From Flavisolibacter sp. (lineage in GTDB: Bacteria > Bacteroidota > Bacteroidia > Chitinophagales > Chitinophagaceae), in NCBI GenBank assembly GCA_028288675.1, contig JAQBNG010000089.1:1-32921 (forward strand): DNA of 32,921 bases. The letters run 5' to 3'. This document shows, one piece after another, positions 12,233 through 32,505 of the stretch (positions are counted from its first letter, which is position 1; every line of letters begins with the position of its first letter). The notes under the pieces are model-generated. The model saw only the letters and a program-made list of their open reading frames with translations. It did no database searches and was not told the DNA's origin. A program made the position numbers and the translations under genes.

Positions 12233-12324
12233 AACTCTCGCTCACCTCAGACTCCTGAAGAAGAGCTTCTATGCACAGCACAGTATCCCGGTAGCTGAAG
12301 ATGTTGATTAGAATTGTTGCCGGT

Positions 12325-12377
12325 GAAGAGTGCGACGCAACAAAAGCTAAATAGTAGCATTCAGCTTGGTACATAAA
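12325..12377 (-). repeat. Dispersed GTGCGACGCAA element, copy A
   Basis: The core AGAGTGCGACGCAACAAAAG followed by CTAAATAGTAGCAT and GTACATAAAA is shared with copies at 15.65, 19.30 and 32.45 kb. It lies beyond the 3' end of the reverse-strand FKBP gene and overlaps its terminator. Confidence 0.8.
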
Positions 12378-12406
12378 AAAACTCAACCGACAAAAATGGT
12401 TGAGTT
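12375..12406 (-). terminator. Rho-independent terminator of the FKBP gene
   Basis: On the reverse strand AACTCAACC pairs with GGTTGAGTT around a 9-nt loop, followed by a run of T. It lies about 73 bp after the FKBP stop codon and overlaps the end of repeat copy A. Confidence 0.8.
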
Positions 12407-15446: not shown

Positions 15447-15579
15447 GCCGTTTGTCATTCCGACAAAGGACGAACCTTTGAATTGCCATCGTAAACGACC
15501 ACTGCGAAGAGTAAGACCATCTGCATAAGCCCCTTATAAAGCACCAATCAAATCCCTCCTGCGTCCGGATGACAAGGCC
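15447..15579. repeat. Palindromic element with GTCATTCCGA ends
   Basis: The left end GGCCGTTTGTCATTCCGACA and the right end (reverse complement GGCCTTGTCATCCGGACGCA) are imperfect inverted repeats separated by ~70 bp. The words GTCATCCCGA...GGAGGGAT resemble a palindromic intergenic repeat frequent in Bacteroidota genomes (from memory). A lone related end, GCCATCCCGAGGAACGAGGG, occurs at 30957-30976. Confidence 0.6.
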
Positions 15580-15708
15580 AAAGCTTTATTGTAATAGTCA
15601 GCTTGAAAGATTGAAGGGTTATATAATGTTCAATAGATTACAAAGTGTACAAGAGTGCGACGCAACAAAAGCTAAATAGTAGCATATCCGCTAAGTACAT
15701 AAAAACCT
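15541..15708 (-). repeat. Dispersed GTGCGACGCAA element, long copy B
   Basis: A ~168-bp unit from GCACCAATCAAATCCCTCCT to CTAAGTACATAAAAACCT is nearly the same as the unit at 32336-32505, with a few substitutions and 1-3 nt indels. It contains the core GTGCGACGCAA at 15655-15665. It lies 72 bp beyond the LysM gene stop codon. Confidence 0.85.
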
Positions 15709-19265: not shown

Positions 19266-19340
19266 TTGCTATATGCTGAATAGAATTACAGAATGTGCAA
19301 GAGTGCGACGCAAGAGACGATCAATAGTAGTACTTCCGCC
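19266..19340 (-). repeat. Dispersed GTGCGACGCAA element, short copy C
   Basis: CAAGAGTGCGACGCAAGA with flanking AATAGTAGTACTTCCGC and a left part (GAATAGAATTACAGAATGTG) matches the other copies over roughly 65 bp but lacks the outer segments. It lies 82 bp beyond the stop of the CBS gene. Confidence 0.7.
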
Positions 19341-19421
19341 GGGTTCAAAAGAAAAATGCAATTAATAGTACGGAACAATTATAAAAAACTAAAAGCCCTC
19401 TTCATCAATCCATATAATACT

Positions 19422-31099: not shown

Positions 31100-32173
31100 T
31101 TAAGCAGGATTTGCGACCTTTTCGTATCGCTCAATTGTTTTAATTAACCTTGACGAAAACTCATAAAGTTGATTGCTATTTTCTATTTCTATTCTCTCTT
31201 CTTTGTCTGTATCGAAAAAGGAAACATGCTTCTTTTTTCCATTATAGTGAAGCCTGGCAATAGGTTTCCGGTTATTATCGTCAAGTAAGATTCCAAAATA
31301 GGATTGTTGATCTCTATGTATGATTCTTGCCACTTTGACCTTCACGCAACAAATAGCCCGGATAATATAAAAACTTTCCATTTCTTCGGCCGTCGTTTGC
31401 ACTTTATTCTCTTCCGTAACAGTTAACGATTCTACCCTCTCTACTTCCTCTTGCTTTTGCTGATCTGTGGCTAGTGCTGATTTTAGTCTTTCGTTTATAG
31501 CATCATTAATATACTGATGAAAAGAGCGTTTTACCAAACCTCTGAATTGTTCTAAAACTTTAGGAGTAACCATTGAAGAATAAACATTCTTTGCAAAGAA
31601 GCGGGTGAATTCATCTGAAGGTTCACTTATCTCTTTTACAATCGTGTTCCGTAATTCAGACATGAATTTCAATTCGCTGGCTGTATTAATGATGCTGTCA
31701 AGATTAAAATAGCTTTTATGAAACTCTTTTAGCTTTTCGGTCTGTGATTCTTTAATATCATCAATCCTAAATTCAAAGAAAGGTTTATCATCCATCTTGT
31801 TAGGCTGCACTAAGTCCGTATAAAATCGAAAAGTGATGCCATTTGTAAGAATCCCGAACTTAGACTCAGTTGTATGAAAGTATCTAAAAAGCTGGCTGTT
31901 GTGAGGGTCAAGGTCAGCAGACCAATGTTTACATTCAACTAAAATAATTGGCTTATCATCTTTAAAAATTGCATAATCTACTTTTTCACCTTTTTTGATT
32001 CCAATATCGGCTACGAATTCCGGAACTACTTCTAAAGGATTGAATACGTCATATCCCAAACATTGAATGAAAGGCATAATGAAAGCATTCTTTGTAGCTT
32101 CCTCTGTCAAAATTTTGTCTTTCATTTTAGCAACCCGGTCACCGAGTTGTTTTATTTGATCTTTGAAGTCCAT
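31100..32173 (-). CDS. Solitary HsdR-N-type nuclease
   Basis: The 357-residue product has a PD-(D/E)xK nuclease domain like the N-terminus of type I restriction R subunits: LTEEATKNAFIMPFIQCLGY, then D66, E80 and K82 (KVDYAIFKDDKPIILVECKH) and a QxxxY motif (Q94, Y98 in SQLFRYFHT). A charged helical middle (~125-260) follows. The last ~90 residues contain FYIIRAICCVKVKVARIIHR and GILLDDNNRKPIARLHYNGK, a small beta-rich domain common in standalone relatives. No helicase motor and no hsdM/hsdS genes are nearby. The role could be defence or DNA repair; it is unproven. It lies between repeat elements and a gene remnant, suggesting an accessory locus. Confidence 0.8.
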   Translation of the reverse strand: MDFKDQIKQLGDRVAKMKDKILTEEATKNAFIMPFIQCLGYDVFNPLEVVPEFVADIGIKKGEKVDYAIFKDDKPIILVECKHWSADLDPHNSQLFRYFHTTESKFGILTNGITFRFYTDLVQPNKMDDKPFFEFRIDDIKESQTEKLKEFHKSYFNLDSIINTASELKFMSELRNTIVKEISEPSDEFTRFFAKNVYSSMVTPKVLEQFRGLVKRSFHQYINDAINERLKSALATDQQKQEEVERVESLTVTEENKVQTTAEEMESFYIIRAICCVKVKVARIIHRDQQSYFGILLDDNNRKPIARLHYNGKKKHVSFFDTDKEERIEIENSNQLYEFSSRLIKTIERYEKVANPA

Positions 32174-32335: not shown

Positions 32336-32505
32336 GCACCAATCACCTCCCCTCCTGCGTCGGATGACAAGGCCAAAGTTTTATTATAGTAGTCAGGTTG
32401 AAAGATTGAAGAGGGGTTATATAAGGTTCAATAGCATTACAAAGCGTACAAGAGTGCGACGCAAGAAAAGCTAAATAGTAGCACTTCTGCTAAGTACATA
32501 AAAGC
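32336..32505 (-). repeat. Dispersed GTGCGACGCAA element, long copy D
   Basis: This is the second ~170-bp copy, from GCACCAATCACCTCCCCTCC to CTAAGTACATAAAAGCCT, with the core at 32454-32464. It ends immediately at the stop codon of the beta-barrel gene. By eye it agrees with copy B at most positions. Confidence 0.85.

Follow-up and report, generated by a model that had tools for sequence, protein, structure and literature searches.

A high-copy extragenic repeat of Flavisolibacter is probably one end of small, non-autonomous two-ended elements of the Chitinophagaceae

Introduction

MITEs are non-coding elements with inverted terminal sequences and a variable interior, found at sites that are occupied in one species only. 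Populations of REPINs or BIMEs, as described in two reports, consist of inverted doublets with a diverse spacer and of singlets, and show long persistence (PMC8049555, PMC6006769). A further report describes CGTC-tagged REPs as stem-loops with stems of 8-9 bp, present in several phyla including the Bacteroidetes and having no dedicated transposase (PMC3733652).

The stretch of 32,921 nucleotides analyzed here (the window) contains four copies of a repeat that the original prediction had taken for a transcribed RNA segment with fixed polarity at the 3' ends of genes. No earlier description of this repeat was found in the literature searched by core letters, host names and terminator insertion. 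The repeat, numerous and extragenic, with outward pairing, alternative ends, a 3'-end bias and sites that stand empty in relatives, is in our judgement (probability about 0.72) the A-type end of small, gene-free, two-ended extragenic elements of the Chitinophagaceae, which are non-autonomous and BIME/REPIN- or MITE-like.

Results

The four copies in the window

The exact core GTGCGACGCAA occurs four times in the window, at 12330, 15655, 19303 and 32454, each time on the + strand, so that the four copies claimed, and their common orientation, were found again. The features of the window are as follows.

12302..12379, + strand: A-type end, copy 1; core 12330-12340; the A-run touches the FKBP hairpin at 12380-12406
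12380..12406, - strand: terminator-like hairpin AACTCAACC/GGTTGAGTT following the reverse-strand FKBP gene; 9-nt arms, 100% complementary
15452..15575, no strand assigned: interior inverted repeat TTGTCATTCC.../...GGATGACAA next to copy 2, on its inner side; 19-nt arms, 79%
15627..15704, + strand: A-type end, copy 2; core 15655-15665; the tail points to the LysM gene
19275..19352, + strand: A-type end, copy 3; core 19303-19313; lies between CBS gene (stop side) and bestrophin-like gene
32361..32411, + strand: companion segment common to copies 2 and 4; 92% over 51 nt
32426..32503, + strand: A-type end, copy 4; core 32454-32464; the beta-barrel ORF ends 2 bp away

Pfam confirmed the reverse-strand neighbours that had been named, i.e. 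the FKBP, LysM, CBS and outer-membrane beta-barrel genes; the distances from the end of the conserved block to the ORF end are 99, 75, 69 and 2 bp for copies 1-4. The start assigned earlier to the first copy (12325) lies 5 bp before its core; the other three (15541, 19266 and 32336) precede their cores by 114, 37 and 118 bp. Two of these, 15541 and 32336, mark the onset of a longer similarity common to copies 2 and 4 (GCACCAATCA...) and are extended-similarity starts, not errors. The flanking motifs CTAAATAGTAGCA and GTACATAAAA, said to be shared by most copies, are present in three of the four, the copy at 19303 being the deviating one. The near-palindrome TGCGACGCA exists as described, but its centre is a single base.

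The T-tract of the terminator-like hairpin of the FKBP gene (12380-12406) is at the same time the A-run of copy 1. An arrangement like the inverted repeat inside of copy 2 (15452..15575) was seen in many composite units, and the companion segment at 32361..32411 is probably a remnant of a composite unit of the kind found at copy 2.

Two other features of the window were recorded. The protein encoded at 31100-32173, adjoining copy 4, carries the N-terminal domain of type I restriction R subunits. Between 20540 and 23800, inside an ORF of 1601 aa with what look by eye like PKD-like tandem domains, a 24-nt motif (TGG..TTTGGCGATGG) occurs 11 times with a spacing of about 250 bp or multiples of it.

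Copy number and extent of the conserved block

The whole-genome search with the core that had been proposed was performed on the own genome (4,738,586 bases, 4.74 Mb, in 254 contigs). The 11-mer GTGCGACGCAA was found 160 times, far above chance, 79 copies being forward and 81 reverse; the reversed pattern, used as control, was found once. The view that the repeat is not random debris is borne out by this difference.

We read 140 of the 160 copies, in 110 fetched stretches and the window. The sequence logo showed a block conserved from about -29 to +50 around the core, strongest at AAGAGTGCGACGCAA and with an A-run at +44 to +50; the conservation of the 11-mer itself is by construction, as the copies were found by their core. 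The A-type end is therefore delimited as a block of about 78 bp running from TGCTGAATAG to GGTACAAAA and closing in the A-run. Contig ends cut 2 of the 140 copies read, so that assemblies can be broken by such repeats.

Two candidate features of the block were rejected. A tandem duplication within the end scored 6.5 in its best window, where the null distribution has a mean of 6.1 and its 95% point at 7.9. For a hypervariable middle, identity in seven orthologous pairs was 147/189, compared with 580/770 and 490/630 in the flanks. The identity of the core in these pairs (105/105) is uninformative, because both copies had been found by the core.

Outward pairs and alternative ends

Among the fetched loci, 26 of the 27 neighbouring pairs less than 450 bp apart were oriented outward, with the tails apart; the own genome contributes four of the 26. 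Outward pairs were found in convergent, co-directional and divergent gaps alike, the gene contexts being +- in 8 cases, ++ in 8, -- in 5 and -+ in 3, with one gene unknown in 2.

A second type of end, B, has the core GGAGCGTCGCC and, after it, the same tail scaffold as A; the genome contains 29 such cores, against none for the control. All 19 B cores within the own DNA that was fetched, which was chosen around A copies, were outward, 66-396 bp from an A core. A third core, C (GAGTGACACAA), was found three times in the fetched own DNA.

With a profile of the right half of the end, which took in B and C ends first met beside A copies and so leans toward finding them, an inner-side partner was detected on the opposite strand for 39 of 136 own copies and on the same strand for 2, while 97 of the 136 had no detectable partner. 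On the outer side a partner was found for 1 of 137 copies.

Gene context, polarity and terminators

No core lay inside a called gene among the 140 own copies (home-made ORF caller), and four did among 275 distinct copies of other genomes. In the own genome, the gene on the A-run side faced the copy with its stop in 87 of 136 cases and with its start in 49 (P = 3e-5), the background being the proportion of stops among the gap-facing gene ends of the same DNA (0.459). On the inner side there was no bias (65 of 132 stops, P = 0.48). Copies without a called gene, 4 of 140 on the tail side and 8 of 140 on the inner side, were left out of these counts. The other genomes gave the same picture: 164 of 260 stops on the A-run side (P = 4e-6) and 128 of 258 on the inner side (P = 0.80). 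A Fisher test of convergent versus divergent gaps, the background of which took in the same gaps, was not relied on. A preference for the 3' ends of genes is hence real in both sets when orientation to the nearest gene is tabulated; the fixed polarity described from the window is not a genome-wide rule, the bias amounting to about 64% only.

The A-run abutted a terminator-like hairpin in 15 of the 87 stop-facing copies, including copy 1 of the window, versus 1 of the 49 start-facing copies and 3-4% in shuffles. Units may settle at A/T tracts between genes, including the T-tracts of terminators. Such insertion would account for the A-run itself and for part of the 3'-end bias, and would produce an apparent fixed polarity without any role in the message. 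An insertion preference alone could imitate a 3'-end RNA signal.

The repeat as an RNA element

The block might be transcribed with the upstream gene as part of its 3'-UTR and serve as a processing, stabilising or termination-linked site. The report cited above states that many other REP repeats are located downstream of genes and that they may function as RNA (PMC3733652). The excess of stops on the A-run side, 87/136 in the own and 164/260 in foreign genomes, and the 15 of 87 copies located directly behind a terminator-like hairpin fit this explanation. The 49 of 136 copies that face starts do not, nor does the occurrence of outward pairs in gaps of every type. In the terminator cases the blocks lie downstream of the T-tract and would be beyond the expected transcript. 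Behind the same genes in relatives (FKBP, LysM, CBS and DEAD-box sites) the block is missing, a borderline remnant apart (see below).

Structural analyses gave no support to an RNA role. The covariation analysis that had been suggested was performed on 138 of the 140 copies, the two copies cut at contig ends being left out. Of the 45 strongest column linkages, 43 were between columns at most 8 apart and two between columns 11 apart, and no base-pairing columns or pairing pattern emerged from the alignment. The 138 single ends folded like their shuffles (mean z -0.19, one below -2). No Rfam family reached its gathering score on the window. The proposal of a transcribed 3' RNA segment was not supported by these results, and we regard it as improbable.

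At a permissive threshold, the Rfam search of four unit-bearing loci returned a tRNA elsewhere and one sub-threshold match to the ribosomal L10 leader. The latter adjoins an A end (L016:3117-3235; 30.3 bits against a threshold of 44, E 0.19). A coding repeat was also considered, a shared peptide having been noticed by eye on the reverse complement, and was rejected: across the 140 copies, stops occur in all six frames.

Distribution and site occupancy in relatives

Of 58 genomes searched, 19 contained the 14-mer AGAGTGCGACGCAA. They comprise 12 of the 18 genus members and 7 of the 17 genomes from other genera of the family; none of the 23 genomes from other families of the order had it. The count per genome of the genus ranged from 0 to 149. 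The exact 14-mer was absent from 6 of the 18 members, at least one of which, G013, retains decayed copies.

When named genomes were scanned with a 19-mer, at least 114 stretches matched. The titles among the 80 matches listed included Segetibacter, Foetidibacter, Limnovirga, Pinibacter, Niabella, Ferruginibacter and Lacibacter, all of which we take to be Chitinophagaceae; other titles among these 80 were Chitinophagaceae, Chitinophagales or Bacteroidetes bacteria. The 19-mer was also seen in nine stretches of six viral contigs (L328-L336). The plasmid collection held no match for one unit of 431 bases.

Site occupancy was determined at four own sites, behind the FKBP, LysM and CBS genes of the window and behind a DEAD-box gene elsewhere, by scanning the loci of the orthologous genes within the genus with two profiles, one locus per genome. 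Own loci included, 17 loci were compared for FKBP, 17 for LysM, 15 for CBS and 16 for DEAD-box. Weak, split or missing matches were left out (G001 for FKBP; G001 and G010 for DEAD-box; G007 for LysM; G015, G010 and G007 for CBS). Among these 65 loci a clear element was found in the own locus only; it was absent from the 61 loci of relatives, with the exception of one borderline remnant behind the FKBP gene of G003 (L261:1392-1426), a weak match (E = 0.031) that may be what is left of a copy at that site. Another profile match, in L401, lay more than 1 kb from the gap tested.

The related genomes G014 and G006 have 7 of the 18 sites of G014 in common, so that many copies are old; the pairs L343/L360 and L345/L360, repeat-to-repeat matches of about 290 bp, are not included in this count. 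In differing by lineage yet retaining old sites, the family resembles MITE- or REPIN-like families. Across genera, a same-gap test gave 23 of 62 against a rough expectation of about 20%, a weak indication of shared sites that has no bearing on mobility.

A further observation concerns the DNA behind the DEAD-box gene in relatives (L281-L289, L291-L293, L295), where a short frame rich in aromatic codons is followed by a GC-rich hairpin with a T-run and then by the next gene. By eye, this frame and hairpin recall an amino-acid leader peptide with its attenuator. The leader-like frame was not seen in the 380 bp of the own genome that were examined.

The copies could alternatively be DNA sites for a chromosomal protein, acting as a nucleoid, uptake or segregation signal and kept between genes by selection. 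The high conservation of the core, the even distribution over the strands (79/81), the absence of cores from called own genes and the 7 sites common to two species would all be expected of such a site, which would need neither a 78-bp scaffold, nor alternative cores, nor outward pairing. Absence of the exact 14-mer from a third of the genus (6/18), even if at least one of these members (G013) still has decayed copies, also argues against it, and we find this explanation as improbable as an RNA role.

Unit interiors and associated inverted repeats

The interiors of the units vary. Many contain a long hairpin (TTGTCATCCCGACGCAGGAGGGATC ... GATCCCTCCTGCGTCGGGATGACAAG) and others different inverted repeats; when folded, one outward pair from another genome formed a long hairpin (z = -5.78). 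The two ends of a unit are often alike in core and tail only.

In L115, L133, L343, L345, L347 and L360 a longer inverted-repeat element was noticed, with ends like GGCCCCCTGTCCCCCGGTGGGGGAACTTAG. Inside the longer inverted-repeat element are an A end and, after it, the hairpin ATGCCTG...CAGGCAT, and this other element (L115, L343, L347) carries part of the copy number along.

The A end might accordingly be thought immobile, multiplied by other inverted-repeat elements that carry it or insert beside it. Its position next to different hairpin repeats and inside the longer element ending in GGCCCCCTGTCCCC speaks for such hitch-hiking. Some copies, however, have no neighbouring repeat by eye, e.g. 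the + strand copy in L042, with its core 57 bp behind a stop codon, and other genomes repeatedly show A-A pairs facing outward around a small interior. We therefore hold this to be a quite unlikely origin of the family.

A type I restriction locus between outward ends

In G014 and G006, two A ends are located in a type I restriction locus identified by Pfam (EcoEI_R_C, Methylase_S, HsdM_N/N6_Mtase).

L341:2000-6991 and L356:2000-6340: type I restriction locus in which outward A ends enclose hsdS and the genes after it

The first A end fills the gap between the hsdR stop and the hsdS start, and the second is at the hsdM start. In G006 the second end directly precedes hsdM; in G014 it precedes a duplicated hsdM start, the full hsdM following about 600 bp further on. 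The flanks of the locus are 89-95% identical between the two genomes, while alignment of the 4.3-5 kb between the ends is confined to the first 60 bp or so and to two segments of hsdS, of 198 and 139 bp. G013 has a decayed copy (E = 0.0048) in front of hsdM. An hsdM-like remnant was seen in the own genome (G000:C36:3429-3685; L370, L382); it matches residues 1-35 and, almost immediately afterwards, residues 426-492.

That the ends are active recombination borders, between which gene cargo is exchanged by a cassette-exchange system with its own recombinase, seems very unlikely, and one such locus is too little to claim it.

Search for a mobilising enzyme

Protein clusters built from the genes on the inner and outer sides showed no inner excess, the largest one having seven members on both sides. 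The genes in 22 outward intervals of 0.4-5 kb looked like ordinary host genes, with no transposase by eye, and no parent transposon with the same ends was seen in the fetched loci.

A RAYT was considered as the mobiliser and was not supported. The whole-genome transposase search was directed at the PF01797 (Y1) family, which has five matches in the own genome. One end-like match each was found in 3 of 33 Y1 loci, and the numbers were uncorrelated: over 18 genomes, copy number against Y1 count gave rho 0.18 (P 0.48). Two loci, L255 and L256, have Y1 transposase genes amid other repeats (the CTCCGTAGGAGCC and GGTTGCACC types) that by eye are unlike the element studied here.

Inspection by eye of 30 unit rows revealed no common target-site duplication, the ends being A/T runs, and the loci compared yielded no exact junction between an empty and an occupied site.

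Discussion

The full unit would consist of two inverted, outward ends (A+A, A+B or A+C) around a short, variable interior that often forms a hairpin, and the single ends would be decayed or truncated units. The 78-bp block is best explained as the recognition end of a non-autonomous element, and units may spread by transposition in trans, through an enzyme recognising the conserved core. What moves and maintains an extragenic family of 160 copies with a conserved core, alternative ends and no visible transposase is a question that can be tested.

Of the systems described, CGTC-tagged REPs differ in the stem of 8-9 bp, which is absent from the A end. The interior hairpin of many units (GTCATCCCGACG) is more alike, a resemblance only. 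With MITEs the family has in common inverted terminal sequences, a lack of coding capacity, sites occupied in one species and a variable interior. It differs in that the two ends of a unit often agree in core and tail only; by eye no target-site duplication was recognised, and no parent transposon was seen in the fetched loci.

The comparison with REPINs and BIMEs has two sides. A REP is a palindrome of 20-40 bp, whereas the A end is about 78 bp long and, as a single end, does not fold beyond shuffles. The cognate RAYT of a REP is flanked by the repeat, and here no Y1/RAYT gene was found flanked. A further difference is that one scaffold carries any of three cores, A, B or C. Because the palindromic unit and the cognate RAYT both fail as tested, we call the family REPIN/MITE-like and do not file it as REPIN. 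What it shares with REPINs and BIMEs is the organisation of the population: high-copy extragenic repeats, with two inverted copies around a diverse, hairpin-capable spacer, and singlets beside them.
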